Positions 11,036 through 17,974 of a stretch of DNA of 43,169 bases are shown in pieces; the stretch's first letter is position 1; each line of letters starts with the position of its first letter. The notes beneath the pieces were generated by a model. That model was given only the letters and a program-made list of their open reading frames with translations, did no database searches and was not told the origin of the DNA. The position numbers were made by a program, and so were the translations under genes. This DNA is from Thermodesulfobacteriota bacterium. Its GTDB lineage: Bacteria; Thermosulfidibacterota; Thermosulfidibacteria; Thermosulfidibacterales; B14-G1. The stretch is from positions 1 to 43,169 of the forward strand of contig JAJSAC010000034.1 in the NCBI GenBank assembly GCA_024274915.1. Reading direction: 5' to 3'.

Positions 11036-12379
11036 ATGTTTGAGAAGGTGCTTGTTGCCAACCGAGGTGAGATTGCTGTCAGGGTGATAAAGGCGTGTCA
11101 GAAGTTGGGGGTCAAGACAGTGGCTGTCTATTCTGATGCTGATAGAGAGGCCCTGCATGTCCAGATGGCTGATGAGTCTTACCATATTGGCCCTCCTCCT
11201 GTGGCCCAGAGCTACTTGAACATGGACAAGATCGTTGAAGTGGCTTTGGGAGCAGGGGTCCAGGCCATCCATCCCGGGTATGGTCTTCTGGCGGAGAACG
11301 CTACTTTTGCAAGAAAGTGCAGAGAGAAGGGGCTAATCTTCATCGGCCCTAAACCCGAGGCCATGGAGGCTATGGGGTTCAAGGTGAAAGCCCGCCAGAT
11401 CATGAAGGAGGCGGGGGTCCCCATTGTACCTGGTAACGTGGAGGGCATTCGGGATTTGGAGCGGGCCAGGGCTCTGGCCCAGGATATAGGTTATCCCGTT
11501 ATGGTGAAGGCTTCGGCGGGTGGCGGTGGAATCGGGATGCAGATTGCCCGGGATGAGAGGGAACTGGAACAGGCCTTCAAGATATGTGAAGCCCGGGCCA
11601 AGGCCTATTTTGGCGATCCTTCCCTATACCTCGAAAAGTATATTGAGGAGCCCCGGCATATAGAGATCCAGGTGCTGGCCGACAACGAGGGTTACACCGT
11701 TCATCTCAATGAGAGGGAGTGCTCTGTCCAGAGGCGTCACCAGAAGGTGATAGAGGAGGCTCCTTCTACCTTTGTAGACCCTGATATGAGGCGAAGGATG
11801 GGGGCTGCCGCTGTACGATCTGCTCAGGCCATAGGATACAACAACGCTGGTACGGTGGAGTTTCTGGTGGATCCCGATAAAAATTTCTACTTTCTTGAGA
11901 TGAACACTCGTATCCAGGTGGAGCATCCCGTGACAGAGATGATCACGGGCGTAGACTTGGTGGAGTGGCAGCTGAGGATAGCCTCGGGGGAACTTCTCAC
12001 CTTGCAGCAGGAAGAGATCGGCATTGATGGCCATGCCATTGAAAGTCGTATCTATGCCGAGGACCCCGATAAGAAGTTCATGCCCTCTCCCGGGAAGATC
12101 ACCCGGTGGCAGGTGCCCCAGATGGAGGGTTTCAGAGCCGATGTGGGGGTTTATGAGGGTTATACAGTTTCCCCTTACTATGATCCCCTATTGGCCAAGT
12201 TTGTCACTTGGGGTGAGACCAGGGATGAGGCTATTGACAGGATGGTTTTGGCCTTGGAAAGTACGGTGGTGGAGGGGATCAAGACCAATATACCCTTCCA
12301 TCTCAAAGCCTTAAAGAGCAGGTTGTTCCGTGAGGGGAGGACCACCACCAACTTTATAGATCAGTTGAAGGAGGAGTGA
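11036..12379 (+). CDS. accC: Biotin carboxylase subunit of an acyl-CoA carboxylase
   Basis: This 447-residue ATP-grasp enzyme carboxylates protein-bound biotin using ATP and bicarbonate. It starts FEKVLVANRGEIAVRVI, the standard N-terminus. The glycine-rich ATP loop KASAGGGGIGMQ lies near 161, ERECSVQRRHQKVIEE near 226, and the catalytic EMNTRIQVEHPVTE near 288. ATG 11036 follows AGAGGTGG. Length matches free-standing biotin carboxylases; the carrier domain is encoded separately by the next gene, four bases away. The gene heads the 11-17.6 kb operon. Context (a carboxyltransferase and an enoyl-CoA hydratase) argues for an acyl-CoA carboxylase rather than the fatty-acid acetyl-CoA carboxylase. 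The precise acyl substrate is inferred, not seen. Confidence 0.93.
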   Translation: MFEKVLVANRGEIAVRVIKACQKLGVKTVAVYSDADREALHVQMADESYHIGPPPVAQSYLNMDKIVEVALGAGVQAIHPGYGLLAENATFARKCREKGLIFIGPKPEAMEAMGFKVKARQIMKEAGVPIVPGNVEGIRDLERARALAQDIGYPVMVKASAGGGGIGMQIARDERELEQAFKICEARAKAYFGDPSLYLEKYIEEPRHIEIQVLADNEGYTVHLNERECSVQRRHQKVIEEAPSTFVDPDMRRRMGAAAVRSAQAIGYNNAGTVEFLVDPDKNFYFLEMNTRIQVEHPVTEMITGVDLVEWQLRIASGELLTLQQEEIGIDGHAIESRIYAEDPDKKFMPSPGKITRWQVPQMEGFRADVGVYEGYTVSPYYDPLLAKFVTWGETRDEAIDRMVLALESTVVEGIKTNIPFHLKALKSRLFREGRTTTNFIDQLKEE

Positions 12380-12382
12380 GAG

Positions 12383-12595
12383 ATGGCGGAAGTGGCATGC
12401 CCCATGGCTGGAGTGGTTGCTGAAGTGAAGGTCCAGCCCGGAGACACCATTGAGCCCGGGCAAGAGCTCCTTATACTGGAGTCCATGAAGATGATGATCC
12501 CTTTCCAGGCGGAGAGCAACGGTGTCGTTAGGGAAGTGAAGGTGAACGTGGGTGATTTTGTTAATGAGGGAGACGTGGTTATCGTTTTGGAGTGA
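12383..12595 (+). CDS. Biotin carboxyl carrier (biotinyl domain) protein
   Basis: This is a minimal 70-residue biotinyl/lipoyl-fold protein. The biotin-acceptor lysine is K36 in LESMKMM. The paired half-motifs PGDTIEPGQ and VGDFVNEGD mark the two symmetrical hairpins. It lacks the long N-terminal extension of AccB, as in carriers that pair with free carboxyltransferase subunits. It shuttles carboxybiotin between the biotin carboxylase before it and the carboxyltransferase after it. It starts three bases after the previous stop. Confidence 0.93.
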   Translation: MAEVACPMAGVVAEVKVQPGDTIEPGQELLILESMKMMIPFQAESNGVVREVKVNVGDFVNEGDVVIVLE

Positions 12596-12598
12596 ACC

Positions 12599-13378
12599 AT
12601 GGAAGAACTGGTCTTGGAGGAGCGAGAGGGCCATGTACTGATCCTTACCCTCAATCGGCCCAGGGTGATGAACGCCCTCAATTTTCCCATGCTAAGGGCC
12701 CTGAAGGGAAAGCTGGAGGCCTGTTGGTTCGATAGAGAGGTGAGGGTGGTACTGGTTACGGGTGCTGGAGATAAGGCCTTCTGCGCTGGTGCAGATCTTA
12801 AGGAGAGGGCTACCCTTTCCGACGTGGAAGTGAAGGAGTTCATCAGGACCATCAGGGACACCTTCACCATGCTGGAGGAGATTCCCAAACCCACCATGGC
12901 CGTTATGAATGGGGTGGCATTTGGTGGTGGGTTGGAGATGGCCTTAGCCTGCGATCTTCGTTTGGCTGCCGAATCGGCTCGCATGGGGCTTACAGAGACC
13001 AGTCTAGCCATCATTCCGGGGGCTGGAGGAACCCAGAGGCTCCCCCGGGTGGTGGGCAAGGCTCGGGCCAAGGAGCTTATCTTCACCGCCCGACGTATCA
13101 CAGCTCGAGAGGCGGAAGGAATGGGTCTGGTGAACGAGGTGGTGTCCGATCACAGACTCCTGGAGCGGGCTATGGAGGTTGCTCGAGAGATCGCCAGCAA
13201 CGGTCCCTTGGCCGTGGCCCAGGCCAAGTACGCCATCAATATGGGCTCCGAGGTGGAGATCCACGTCGGGCTCTTCATAGAGTCCCGGTGCTACGATAAC
13301 ATCATCCCTACCAAAGACCGACTGGAGGGGCTCAAAGCCTTTCAGGAAAAGAGGAAACCCCAGTACAGAGGGGAATAG
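12599..13378 (+). CDS. Enoyl-CoA hydratase/isomerase (possible methylglutaconyl-CoA hydratase)
   Basis: This 259-residue crotonase-fold protein starts ELVLEEREGHVLILTLNRP. The first oxyanion-hole region is KAFCAGADLKE near residue 60. The second is NGVAFGGGLEMALACDLRLA near 103. The first catalytic glutamate is likely in ETSLAIIPGAGGTQRLPR and the second nearby. The protein is of normal length with the normal C-terminal helices. It sits inside the carboxylase operon between the carrier and the carboxyltransferase, so it probably acts on the carboxylase product or substrate. If that is 3-methylglutaconyl-CoA it would interconvert it with HMG-CoA. The assignment to the crotonase family is firm; the substrate is inference. 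Confidence 0.88.
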   Translation: MEELVLEEREGHVLILTLNRPRVMNALNFPMLRALKGKLEACWFDREVRVVLVTGAGDKAFCAGADLKERATLSDVEVKEFIRTIRDTFTMLEEIPKPTMAVMNGVAFGGGLEMALACDLRLAAESARMGLTETSLAIIPGAGGTQRLPRVVGKARAKELIFTARRITAREAEGMGLVNEVVSDHRLLERAMEVAREIASNGPLAVAQAKYAINMGSEVEIHVGLFIESRCYDNIIPTKDRLEGLKAFQEKRKPQYRGE

Positions 13379-13388
13379 GAGGTAAATC

Positions 13389-14930
13389 ATGGCAACTAAA
13401 GGTGGGGGACTCAAGGCCATCAGGGAGAGGATTCTCCAGATGGGGCCTGAGCGTCACAAAAAGAGGGTGAAAGAGGATTACGGGAAGCTCCTGTGTAGGG
13501 AGCGTTTGGAAATCCTTCTGGACCCAGGTTCCATAGTGGAGGATGGACTCATGGCCAACTGTCTGGAGGAGGAGCTGGCGGCCGACGGTGTGGTCACAGT
13601 TTTGGGCAAGGTCAACGGTCGGGACGTGGCCGTCATGGCCAATGACTTCTCTGTCAAGGCTGGTTCCTGGGGCCAGCGCACCGTGGAGAAGATTATTCGC
13701 ATCCAGGAAACGGCCATGCGTCTCCGCATCCCCATGATCTATTTGGTGGACTCGGCAGGGTTACGCATCACCGATCAGATCTACTGCTTCCCGGGGCGGC
13801 GTCACGCAGGACGCATTTTCCATCTCCAGGCTCTCATGTCGGGTATGATCCCCCAGGTCTGCATCCTATCGGGACCTTCGGCGGCGGGGGGGGCCTACAT
13901 TCCCACTTTCTGTGACGTGATCATCTGCGTGGACAAGCTGGGGGCCATGTACCTGGGATCCCCTAGAATGGCCGAGGTGACCATTGGGGAGAAGGTGACC
14001 CTGGAGGAGATGGGAGGATCTCGGATGCACTGCTCCGTGTCGGGGGTGGGCGACGTCTTTGCCGAGAACGAGGAGGAGGCCCTCCAGATGCTCAAGGACT
14101 ATCTATCCTACTTCCCCCAGCACTGCTTTGAGAAACCCCCTGTCTACGAGCCTGCCGAGCCCGAGAAATCCATTGAGGACATTGAGAAGGTGATACCCGA
14201 GAACCAGAACCTTCCCTTCGACATGTACGAGGTGATCTGGCGCATTATTGACAGGGACAGCTGGTTCGAGATGAAGAAGCTGTGGGCCCAGGAGATCATC
14301 ACCGGTTTTGCCCGGATCGACGGCAAGCCCCTGGGCATCATCGCCAACCAGCCCAAGGTGAAGGGCGGTGTTCTTTTTGTGGACTCTGCCGACAAGGCTT
14401 GTCGGTTCATCAGACTCTGCGATGCCTTCAATATTCCCCTTCTTTACCTCATGGACGTGCCAGGTTTCATGATCGGTTCCAAGGTGGAGAAAGAGGGCAT
14501 CCTGCGCCACGGTTGTAAGATGCTCTATGCCGTCTCCGAGGCCACGGTGCCCAAGATTTCCGTGGTTATCCGCAAGGCCTACGGTGCCGGACTCTACGCC
14601 ATGTGTGGTCCGTCCCACGAGCCCGATGCCTGCCTGGCCCTGCCAACGGCCATGGTGGCTGTCATGGGTCCCGAGGCAGCAGTGAACGCTGTGTACTACA
14701 ATCACATCCAGGAGATTAAAGACCCCAAAGAGCGTATGAAGTTCGTCATGGAGAAGCAAAAGGAGTACCGGGAACAGGTAGACATATACAAGCTGGCCGC
14801 CAACCTGATCATCGATGACATGGTGGTGCCCACTCAGCTCCGTTCTGAACTCATTCGCCGTTTCGCCTACTACGAGAAGAAGCCTGGAGAGCTGCGTTAT
14901 CCCAAGAAACACGGGGTTATGCAGGTTTGA
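13389..14930 (+). CDS. Acyl-CoA carboxylase carboxyltransferase subunit (MCC/PCC type)
   Basis: This 513-residue fused carboxyltransferase transfers CO2 from carboxybiotin to an acyl-CoA. The N-half has RERLEILLDPGSIVEDG, LVDSAGLRI, and the oxyanion loop GPSAAGGAYIPTFCDVIICV. The C-half has GIIANQPKVKGGVLFVDSADKACRF, the LMDVPGFMIGSKVEKEGIL loop and KAYGAGLYAMCG. The AGGAYIP form resembles methylcrotonyl-CoA carboxylase beta subunits more than propionyl-CoA ones (which tend to read GGAVYSP), but this is judged by eye. The start follows a strong TAGGAGGT site. The gene ends the first tight block of the operon; a 73-bp gap follows. Confidence 0.9.
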   Translation: MATKGGGLKAIRERILQMGPERHKKRVKEDYGKLLCRERLEILLDPGSIVEDGLMANCLEEELAADGVVTVLGKVNGRDVAVMANDFSVKAGSWGQRTVEKIIRIQETAMRLRIPMIYLVDSAGLRITDQIYCFPGRRHAGRIFHLQALMSGMIPQVCILSGPSAAGGAYIPTFCDVIICVDKLGAMYLGSPRMAEVTIGEKVTLEEMGGSRMHCSVSGVGDVFAENEEEALQMLKDYLSYFPQHCFEKPPVYEPAEPEKSIEDIEKVIPENQNLPFDMYEVIWRIIDRDSWFEMKKLWAQEIITGFARIDGKPLGIIANQPKVKGGVLFVDSADKACRFIRLCDAFNIPLLYLMDVPGFMIGSKVEKEGILRHGCKMLYAVSEATVPKISVVIRKAYGAGLYAMCGPSHEPDACLALPTAMVAVMGPEAAVNAVYYNHIQEIKDPKERMKFVMEKQKEYREQVDIYKLAANLIIDDMVVPTQLRSELIRRFAYYEKKPGELRYPKKHGVMQV

Positions 14931-14945
14931 TGAAATTTAAAATTA

Positions 14946-14974
14946 TTGACAGAAACTAAAAAGGATTGTAAAGG
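14946..14974 (+). promoter_or_regulatory. Possible internal promoter before HMG-CoA synthase
   Basis: TTGACA at 14946-14951 is followed by a 17-bp spacer and TAAAGG at 14969-14974. The surroundings are AT-rich, in contrast to the genes on either side. The weak -10 keeps this tentative. It would allow separate expression of the HMG-CoA synthase, thiolase and DUF35 trio. Confidence 0.4.
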
Positions 14975-15003
14975 CAGTACAAATACACAAGGAGGGTAGC
15001 TTC

Positions 15004-16068
15004 ATGGCAGTAGGTATTATCGGATACGGTGCCTACGTCCCCCGTTACAGGATTAAGGCGGAGGAGATAGCGGCCCAGTGGGGGGATGACCCTGAGGTCA
15101 TCAAGCGGGGCTTGCTCCTCTACGAAAAGACGGTGCCCAACCAGGACGAGGACACGGTCACCATTGCCTACCAGGCTGCCAAGTATGCCCTGGTTAGGGC
15201 GGGAATCGATCCCAGGGAGATCGGCGCCATCTACATCGGTTCCGAGTCCCATCCTTACGCCGTCAAGCCTTCCGGCACCATAGTGGCCGAGGCCTTGGGC
15301 ATGACCCCCGAGATTCATATCGCCGACTACGAGTTTGCCTGTAAGGCCGGTGCCGAGGCCATGTTCGTCTGTTACTCCCATGTCAAGTCCGGCAACATGA
15401 GGTATGCCATGGCTATTGGAGCCGACACCTCCCAGGGTGCCCCTGCCGACGCTCTCGAATACTCGGCTGCCGCCGGTGGCTCTGCTTTCATTTTTGGGGC
15501 CGATGAGGACAAGATCATCGCTGAAGTTCTCTACACTTACTCCTTCACCACAGATACCCCCGACTTCTGGCGCCGGGAGCACGAGATGTATCCCCAGCAC
15601 GGCGGCCGTTTCACTGGAGAGCCAGCCTACTTTAAACATGTGGTCTCTGCTGGCAGGAACATCATGGAGATGGCTGGTCTCACTGCCAAGGACATCCAGT
15701 GGGCCGTGTTTCACATGCCCAACGGGAAGTTCCCCCTGAGGGCTGGTCAGAAGCTTGGTTTCAAGAAGGAGCAGATAGAGCCCGGCTGGGTGGTCCCCTG
15801 GCAGGGTAACACCTACTCCGGCGCCTCTCCCAACGGTCTGACCGCCACCCTGGATAGCGCCGCCAAGCCTGGGGATCTCATTCTCATGGTCTCCTTCGGT
15901 TCTGGTGCCGGTTCCGACTCCTTCATCTTCAGGGTGACGGAGAGGATCAACGAGGTGAGGGACATGGTGCCCAAGCTGTGGGACCTTATCCACGGCAGAA
16001 AGTTCTATCTCACCTATGGTCAGTATGCCAAGTTCAGGGGCAAGATCCACCTGAACCCCGATGTTTAA
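15004..16068 (+). CDS. Hydroxymethylglutaryl-CoA synthase, archaeal type
   Basis: This 354-residue thiolase-fold protein would condense acetyl-CoA with acetoacetyl-CoA to HMG-CoA, or run the reverse. It starts [20 protein letters not shown]. The nucleophile cysteine is in [14 protein letters not shown] near residue 112, the catalytic glutamate is probably in GTIVAEALG, and the histidine in FHMPNGKFP near 237. Length and C-terminus (GKIHLNPDV) match the short archaeal HMG-CoA synthases rather than the longer eukaryotic or Gram-positive MvaS. The start follows AAGGAGGG. Together with the next two genes it forms the arrangement known from archaea, where thiolase, synthase and DUF35 make one complex. 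Confidence 0.9.
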
Positions 16069-16084
16069 TTCAGGAGGTATGGGC

Positions 16085-17233
16085 ATGAGAGATGTAGCAG
16101 TAATTGGAATTGGTATCACCAAATTCGGGGAGCTCTGGTGGCAGAACCTCCGGGAGCTTTACGTGGAGGCTGCCCTGAAGGCCATAAAGGACGCCGGCGT
16201 GGATCACCTGGACTCCATGTACGTGGGCTGTATGACCAGTGGCCTTTTCTGTGCCCAGGAGCATTTGGGTTCTCTTATGGCCGACTATCTGGGCCAGAAG
16301 CACCTCCCCGCCTACAGGATCGAGTCGGCCTGCGCTTCGGGTGGTCTGGCCTTCCGTCTGGGCTACATAGAGGTGGCCTCGGGCATGAGCGACATAGTGT
16401 TGGTGGGGGGCGTGGAGAAGATGCTCACCGGGGCCGATGCCACTTTTGCCCTGGCGTCTGCTGCCGACCAAGAGTACGAGGCCTTTCATGGGAACACCTT
16501 CCCTGGTCTCTACGCTATGATCGCCAAGGCTCACATGACCAAGTATGGGACCACCCGGGAGCAGATGGCTGCCGTGGCTGTGAAGAGCCACGATAACGGT
16601 TCCAAGAACCCCAACGCCCAGTTCCCTTTGAAAATCAGCAAAGAGATGGTCCTCAACGCCACTCCCGTAGCCGACCCCCTGGGTCTCTTCGACTGCTCCC
16701 CTGTGAGCGATGGCGCTGCTGCCGTTATCCTGTGTCCCGTGGAGCTGGCCAAAAAGTACACTGACACCATCATCAAGGTGATTGGTTCCGGTGCCGCCAC
16801 CTCCACCATTGCCCTCCATCAGAGGGACGACATTACCTTCCTGGATGCTGTATATCAGGCAGGTAAGAGGGCCTATGAGGTGGCAGGTCTCAAGCCCGAG
16901 GATATAGATTTTGCCGAGGTTCACGATTGCTTCACCATTGCTGAGATCTGCTGCATCGAGGCCCTAGGCTTCTGCGAGGTGGGCCAAGGAGGTCCCTTCT
17001 CCGAGGCGGGCAATACGGCTCTGGACGGCAAGGTGCCCATCAACACCAGTGGTGGTCTCAAGTCCAAAGGCCACCCCGTGGGGGCCACTGGAGTGGCCCA
17101 GATCGTGGAGTTGGTGGAGCAGCTTAGGGGCTCCGCTGGTGAGCGGCAGGTGAAGAACGCCAAGAGGGGCCTGGCTCAGAATATGGGAGGCTCCGGTGGG
17201 AGCTCTGTAGTTCACATCCTGGAGGTGCAGTGA
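16085..17233 (+). CDS. Thiolase (acetyl-CoA C-acetyltransferase, SCP-x/archaeal type)
   Basis: This is a 382-residue thiolase of the short archaeal/SCP-x group. It starts [16 protein letters not shown]. The nucleophilic cysteine is in [14 protein letters not shown] near residue 85. The histidine is in HDCFTIAE near 280, and the C-terminal motif is [18 protein letters not shown] near 320. It would condense or cleave acetoacetyl-CoA. ATG 16085 is seven bases from AGGAGG (16072-16077); the in-frame ATGs at 16061 and 16079 lie upstream of or too near that site. It follows HMG-CoA synthase by 16 bp and overlaps the DUF35 gene by one base. The archaeal-like trio suggests that the unstable intermediate is channelled between the two enzymes. 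Confidence 0.92.
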
Positions 17234-17619
17234 TGATTGTGCCCAGACACTATAAGGAGATGCCCCAGAGGTATAGGTTGCAGGGCAACAGATGCAAGGC
17301 TTGTGGTAAGGTTTTTCTGCCCCCCAGGCTGGTGTGCCCCTGCGGTTCTGAGGACTTGGAAGACTACAGCCTATCTTGGAAGGGAAAGATCCTCTCCTAT
17401 ACCATTATTCGGACTCCTCCCACCCAGTTCAAATATCAAAAACCCTATGCTGTGGCCATCGTGGAGCTGGAGGGTGGAGGTACCGTCCAATGTCAGGTGA
17501 CGGATACCTCTTTGGAAGAGGTGGAGATCGGGAAAGAGGTGGAGATCGTCTTCCGCAAGATTTTCAGCGAAGGGGAAGCAGGAATCCACTGCTACGGCTA
17601 CAAGTGTAGGGTGGTTTAA
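17233..17619 (+). CDS. DUF35 zinc-ribbon/OB-fold CoA-binding protein
   Basis: This 128-residue partner protein has a rubredoxin-like zinc ribbon and an OB-fold. The zinc ligands are C21, C24, C35 and C37 (C-x2-C-x10-C-x-C). The OB part ([19 protein letters not shown], then [11 protein letters not shown]) follows. In archaea DUF35 proteins bridge acetoacetyl-CoA thiolase and HMG-CoA synthase and help to shuttle CoA-bound acetoacetate. The same gene order here strongly suggests the same complex. ATG 17233 overlaps the thiolase stop (TGATG). A terminator follows within 20 bp. Confidence 0.92.
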
Positions 17620-17698: not shown

Positions 17699-17974
17699 AT
17701 GAAGATTTCGCCCAACAAGTTTTATTGGCTTATCTTGAGGGTGGGTGATTGGGAGAAGAAGGGCCGTTGCAATCACCTCACCATAAGGGAACTGTTACCC
17801 GATGAGAAAGAGGTCTTGGGGTCGGAGGGCCAGGGGGCCACCCATGTGGTCCGATTCTTCGATTTCGAGGCCTATCGTCAAATAGTGGGCACCGTCATAG
17901 AGGAGGACGAGGAGCATCTGGTCTTTGACATGGGGAAGGGAAAGACCTACGAATTCCGGGTGTTTAGAGGGTAG
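17699..17974 (+). CDS. Small hypothetical protein
   Basis: This 91-residue soluble-looking protein (MKISPNKFYWLILRVGDWEK at the start) is rich in acidic and aromatic residues and has no recognised motif or signal peptide. ATG 17699 has GAGGGG upstream. It lies after the terminator and runs into the converging amidase gene, overlapping it by 11 bp. A real gene is likely because of the good start and the space it fills. No function proposed. Confidence 0.6.
   Translation: MKISPNKFYWLILRVGDWEKKGRCNHLTIRELLPDEKEVLGSEGQGATHVVRFFDFEAYRQIVGTVIEEDEEHLVFDMGKGKTYEFRVFRG

Follow-up and report, generated by a model that had tools for sequence, protein, structure and literature searches.

A gene cluster of Bacillus amyloliquefaciens encodes, in this order, an acyl-CoA dehydrogenase (ACAD), an AMP-binding ligase, a biotin carboxylase (BC), a 70-aa biotinyl carrier (BCCP), hydroxymethylglutaryl-CoA (HMG-CoA) lyase, an enoyl-CoA hydratase-type protein (ECH) and a carboxyltransferase (CT). 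We take this cluster to be the yng operon (yngJ-yngI-yngHA-yngHB-yngG-yngF-yngE); the record itself carries no yng names. In the archaeal complex of thiolase, HMG-CoA synthase (HMGS) and a DUF35 protein, the two enzymes use a common CoA-binding site without release of acetoacetyl-CoA, as summarized in a passage of PMC12329534 that cites work on the complex. Here we analyze the window, a 43,169-nt stretch of a Thermodesulfobacteriota bacterium (contig JAJSAC010000034.1 of assembly GCA_024274915.1), in which a seven-gene operon on the + strand (11036-17619) encodes BC, BCCP, ECH and CT followed by HMGS, thiolase and DUF35. We consider it quite probable that this operon serves leucine/isovalerate degradation, with a channelled HMGS/thiolase complex working in the cleavage direction and replacing both the lyase and the activation of acetoacetate.

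The original prediction, made from the window alone, described a three-gene carboxylase, a hydratase, HMGS, thiolase and DUF35 in one operon, forming a series of steps between 3-methylcrotonyl-CoA and acetyl-CoA in which HMGS replaces a lyase. All of these genes are present, the third carboxylase gene being the 70-aa biotin carrier. At the level of sequence, the series of steps gains support from comparison with the yng operon, from the genome-wide absence of lyase and reductase, and from a second association of the trio with a methylcrotonyl-CoA carboxylase (MCC). The window corresponds to contig C25 in a draft genome of 2.03 Mb (G000, 93% complete), which was searched family by family.

The carboxylase and hydratase resemble those of the yng operon

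The first four genes of the operon follow the Bacillus cluster in order. BC (11036-12379, 447 aa; Pfam Biotin_carb_N, CPSase_L_D2 and Biotin_carb_C) is 56% identical to YngHA in blastp comparison, and the stand-alone BCCP (12383-12595; Pfam Biotin_lipoyl, 2.6e-19), which carries an ESMKM biotinylation motif and has 70 aa like its counterpart, is 51% identical to YngHB. ECH (12599-13378, 259 aa) is 50% identical to YngF. The nearest annotated CT in the plasmid collection is the one in the B. amyloliquefaciens record, YngE, with 59% identity to the window CT (13389-14930, 513 aa; Pfam Carboxyl_trans). The shared stretch differs in that the lyase gene between carrier and hydratase is absent from the window operon.

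ECH passes the NCBIfam model PRK07657 (366.7 bits, cut-off 363), on which Bacillus YngF scores 420 bits, and its best matches in the Protein Data Bank are 3kqf, a Bacillus-like enoyl-CoA hydratase, and then human methylglutaconyl-CoA hydratase (1hzd). The model and these structures point to a 3-methylglutaconyl-CoA hydratase of the YngF/AUH type, and homology together with gene order suggests that BC, BCCP and CT are the MCC of a yng/Liu module. A role as propionyl-CoA carboxylase (PCC) or acetyl-CoA carboxylase was rejected as the main assignment: the genome has its own PCC-BC-BCCP-methylmalonyl-CoA mutase cluster as well as AccA/AccD-like matches, which leaves MCC as the natural role for the operon carboxylase.

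HMGS, thiolase and DUF35 match the archaeal complex

The remaining three genes are consecutive and orthologous to the subunits of the Methanothermococcus thiolase/HMGS/DUF35 complex (6ESQ), the best match of all three. The archaeal-type HMGS (15004-16068, 354 aa) scores 456.6 bits with 6ESQ chain I and 514.6 bits on TIGR00748 (cut-off 353). The acetoacetyl-CoA thiolase (16061-17233) scores 392 bits with chain A and 543 bits on NCBIfam PRK06064 (cut-off 420), and the DUF35 scaffold protein (17230-17619; zf-ChsH2 and OB_ChsH2_C), with a Zn ribbon (CxxC...CxC) and an OB fold, scores 112.5 bits with chain E. Alignment to chain I shows that the catalytic Glu, Cys and His motifs of HMGS are intact (GSESHP, EFACKAG and VFHMPNG), and alignment to chain A shows that the thiolase keeps its catalytic Cys (in ESACASGG) and His. 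The three proteins presumably assemble into a complex in this organism as well. In the HMGS tree the window group lies among other bacterial sequences, at weak resolution.

The genes of the operon are tightly packed, with spacings in gene order of 3, 3, 10, 73, -8 and -4 nt. Direct reading of the 73-nt gap upstream of HMGS reveals a good ribosome-binding site, AAGGAGGG, and a promoter and terminator scan found no terminator-like site in this gap; the scans of the operon were otherwise uninformative.

Of eight relatives belonging to this order (G001-G008), six carry the operon. The stretches read from G003 and G008 hold all of it, those from G001, G002, G004 and G005 hold it as far as the contig or the fetched stretch extends, and none was found in G006 or G007. 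As gene order is unchanged in all six, to the extent that these ends allow, the seven-gene set is not a product of chance.

Lyase and reductase in the source genome

The absence of HMG-CoA lyase, which the original prediction had stated for the operon, extends to the whole 93% complete assembly: a profile search of G000 found no lyase over the cut-off. Four proteins match the lyase superfamily below the cut-off, namely pyruvate carboxylase, a citramalate synthase and two 2-isopropylmalate synthases. For comparison, the lyase model gives 442 bits with the Bacillus lyase. Likewise, none of the eight relatives of the order has a lyase over the cut-off. G003 encodes, at positions 1351-2232 of locus L083 (G003:C32), a 293-aa HMG-CoA-lyase-like protein (131 bits, cut-off 246) beside a short-chain dehydrogenase/reductase and a sigma-54-type regulator, a score unmatched in the other genomes of the order.

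HMG-CoA reductase (HMGR, PF00368) gave no match in G000 or in its eight relatives, and G000 carries DXR (dxr) of the methylerythritol phosphate (MEP) pathway. Therefore, the operon HMGS is most unlikely to serve mevalonate synthesis, and the low likelihood that the original prediction gave to such a role is borne out by a genome-wide search. G000 also has 11 ACAD matches and eight matches to POR-type 2-oxoacid oxidoreductases, which, with the PCC cluster, would fit an organism that lives on amino acids and short-chain acids.

The same trio adjoins another carboxylase type in other phyla

Among 80 loci with a related HMGS, about half carry CT, ECH or BC adjoining the trio. The order HMGS-thiolase-DUF35-CT-ECH-BC-BCCP, or one near it, occurs in WOR-3, Zixibacteria, Aminicenantes, Ignavibacterium, Latescibacterota and Desulfurella. 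The CT of these phyla is of another type than that of the window, namely MCC-beta of the human/LiuB type. Desulfurella CT scores 657-662 bits against human and Pseudomonas MCC-beta and 302 bits against Thermotoga maritima PCC-beta; its highest score (672 bits) is to a chain that bears the name propionyl-CoA carboxylase beta and belongs to this group too. In a CT tree, built by quick search and with long branches that leave its deep order uncertain, the 36 downstream CTs group together, the window CT and YngE fall in a second group, and PCC-type CTs in a third. Thus, one trio has been joined to two different methylcrotonyl-CoA-type carboxylases, and the association seen in many phyla is apparently independent of the window's type.

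Desulfurella acetivorans (L053, 7191-20661), a named species whose genome is complete, offers the clearest example. Its cluster comprises a sigma-54 regulator, ACAD, HMGS, thiolase, DUF35, ECH, EtfB, EtfA, MCC-beta, BC and BCCP, followed further on by an acyl-CoA:acetate CoA-transferase-like gene; EtfB and EtfA, of the electron-transfer flavoprotein (ETF), were recognised by eye. The ACAD carries LDVER and GAGT, motifs of isovaleryl-CoA dehydrogenases (IVD), and the locus is apparently a complete isovalerate operon. Searches of the complete genome found neither lyase nor HMGR over the cut-off, and DXR is present. Genes for 2-isopropylmalate synthase and citrate synthase lie just upstream of the operon.

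In WOR-3/Stahlbacteria (L013, L015, L018, L020 and L028), the trio and MCC stand beside PCC-type CT and BC and methylmalonyl-CoA mutase, together with a glyoxalase-fold (epimerase-like) gene, an alanine dehydrogenase family gene and acetyl-CoA hydrolase/transferase genes. These loci are branched-chain amino acid catabolic islands.

We surveyed 36 genomes with a carboxylase-adjacent trio, many of them incomplete metagenome-assembled genomes (MAGs); L004 is of the window's type and the rest have other arrangements. A lyase over the cut-off was found in two, HMGR in three and DXR in 32. Neither lyase nor HMGR was found in 31 of these genomes, and 30 of the 31 have DXR. HMGR was rarer here than among comparator genomes in which no carboxylase was seen beside the trio (3/36 vs 7/14; Fisher p = 0.0026, not corrected for relatedness). 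With so many MAGs single absences are weak, but the overall pattern is not. The three HMGR-bearing genomes (G040, G043 and G048, of L047, L052 and L059) all belong to the four genomes that lack DXR. This suggests that they exchanged the MEP for the mevalonate pathway, and the trio could have both functions there.

Proposed pathway and its alternatives

In the pathway that we propose, BC, BCCP and CT would carboxylate 3-methylcrotonyl-CoA with ATP and bicarbonate, and the hydratase would convert the resulting 3-methylglutaconyl-CoA to HMG-CoA. HMGS would then act in reverse, in the lyase's place, splitting HMG-CoA into acetyl-CoA and acetoacetyl-CoA; the latter would pass to the thiolase within the complex for thiolysis, for a net reaction of HMG-CoA + 2 CoA -> 3 acetyl-CoA + H2O. 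Free acetoacetate would never be formed, and therefore no CoA-transferase or ATP would be spent on its activation. In reverse, HMGS has to turn a carboxylate back into a thioester, an unfavourable step, whereas thiolysis of acetoacetyl-CoA is favourable; the two would be coupled in a channelling complex. Thiolysis and the removal of acetyl-CoA would pull the reversal, which is plausible because the complex shares a CoA site. By our own estimate, which does not come from measured values, the summed reaction should be near equilibrium.

Several observations weigh against this pathway. HMG-CoA synthases have been characterised in the forward direction, and in reverse they have to build a thioester on a free carboxylate with no ATP input, a reaction that may prove too slow or too unfavourable. 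The window CT has higher phmmer scores with PCC chains (T. maritima PCC) than with MCC chains, and by this score alone would be placed nearer the former. NCBIfam contains no MCC-specific CT model, and the MCC assignment is made because of the orthology with yng, whose carboxylase substrate is itself inferred from operon context. The window operon contains no IVD gene. The two G000 ACADs closest to YngJ (50.5%) lie in other clusters, and none of the G000 ACADs examined has a clear IVD signature of the Desulfurella type; those on contigs C24 and C5 have Glu at the IVD position and lack the GAGT motif. Finally, two of the 36 carboxylase-adjacent genomes do carry a lyase, and most surveyed genomes are incomplete MAGs.

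The original prediction had offered two directions, of which the catabolic one is favoured by the ATP-dependent carboxylase and by the IVD-like ACAD, EtfBA and CoA-transferase-like gene of Desulfurella, and the forward one fares poorly. Running forwards, the operon would condense three acetyl-CoA to HMG-CoA, which would be dehydrated and decarboxylated to 3-methylcrotonyl-CoA; the isovaleryl unit made from it would start iso-branched fatty acids, as happens in myxobacteria. This is the usual direction of HMGS and thiolase, and G000 does encode a two-subunit pair resembling Gct/Aib. We nevertheless regard it as unlikely, because the operon holds a complete ATP-dependent carboxylase and no AibAB-type decarboxylase, and because the Desulfurella cluster includes the dehydrogenase and ETF; the related yng operon is catabolic as well, given its lyase. 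The sole Gct/Aib-like pair found in the genome lies elsewhere, next to a methylmalonyl-CoA-mutase-like gene; at the catalytic position it has Asn in place of the Glu of glutaconate CoA-transferase (GCT) and the Cys of AibB.

That pair belongs to a group (L142, G000:C2, 5326-12000) consisting of an ACAD, the large subunit of a methylmalonyl-CoA-mutase-like protein and the GctA/GctB-like genes, with a possible cobalamin adenosyltransferase and a possible MeaB-like GTPase, both recognised by eye. Because its beta subunit carries the Asn, the pair is possibly no CoA-transferase. Relatives also show ACAD and CoA_trans matches together.

Slightly less likely again is that HMGS, running forwards, and the carboxylase both supply a pool of HMG-CoA for a new, unrecognised consumer. 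Forward HMGS activity is well established, and a passage of PMC5993337 states that leucine-derived carbon enters sterols in some protozoa. Against such a pool, HMGR is missing from G000 and from 33 of the 36 carboxylase-adjacent genomes, and no further HMG-CoA-consuming gene was seen to recur among the neighbours. We also think it improbable that an unrecognised lyase outside the operon cleaves HMG-CoA, leaving the trio as an acetoacetyl-CoA thiolase with an idle HMGS. The assemblies are incomplete and G003 has its lyase-like protein, in another context; but the four lyase-superfamily matches of G000 are all assigned to other enzymes, the eight relatives and the complete Desulfurella genome yield none over the cut-off, and HMGS is retained with its catalytic residues. 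Supply of a mevalonate pathway, with the carboxylase adjacent by accident, is the role of the homologous archaeal complex but very improbable here, since G000 has DXR and no HMGR, the association recurs with two different carboxylases, and the HMGR genomes are exactly those without DXR (plus one other), as expected if only they use mevalonate.

We thus retain leucine/isovalerate degradation through reversed HMGS. No leucine operon in which HMGS replaces the lyase was found described in the open-access literature, most subscription journals being outside coverage; as far as that literature shows, the operon is a new variant of leucine/isovalerate degradation. We lean towards a previously undescribed route in several mostly uncultured phyla, in which a reversed, channelled complex saves the thioester energy that is lost with free acetoacetate in the lyase route, and which arose at least twice, by the trio joining different MCCs. 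HMGS is taught as a one-way biosynthetic enzyme. If it is reversed here, cells with a marginal energy yield would gain, for each leucine, about one ATP equivalent by sparing the activation of acetoacetate, and the route would explain possible lyase-free leucine degradation in WOR-3, Zixibacteria, Aminicenantes and Desulfurella. Moreover, a mevalonate pathway does not follow from finding HMGS in metagenomic data. In D. acetivorans, a named species for which both the genome and the operon are complete, the direction can be tested directly.

Other features of the window

A 91-aa open reading frame right after the operon (17699-17974) has no Pfam or NCBIfam match. tRNA-Gly (ccc) is predicted twice in the window, at 1117-1202 and 36060-36134; the former, at 86 nt, is of unusual length for a tRNA-Gly and may be misassigned.

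Comparison with known systems

The window operon shares with the Bacillus yng operon BC, a 70-aa BCCP, ECH and CT in the same order, at 50-59% identity. It differs in lacking the yngG lyase, the acyl-CoA dehydrogenase and the AMP-ligase, and in the HMGS, thiolase and DUF35 genes appended to it. As no HMG-CoA lyase is present, the window operon is a variant rather than a plain member of the yng/Liu module. The carboxylase and hydratase steps are also those of the Liu pathway and of human MCC and AUH, whereas HMGS and thiolase would stand in for HMG-CoA lyase and acetoacetate activation, by-passing free acetoacetate.

All three subunits of the archaeal thiolase/HMGS/DUF35 complex are encoded by consecutive genes with their catalytic motifs kept. 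In contrast to the archaeal setting, the window trio resides in a leucine-type operon of a DXR-bearing bacterium without HMGR, and would work backwards. Myxobacterial isovaleryl-CoA biosynthesis (MvaS, LiuC, AibA/B and AibC) passes through the same intermediates, HMG-CoA and 3-methylglutaconyl-CoA, in the direction opposite to the one proposed here; it employs another type of HMGS, and where it has the AibAB decarboxylase the window has an ATP-dependent carboxylase.

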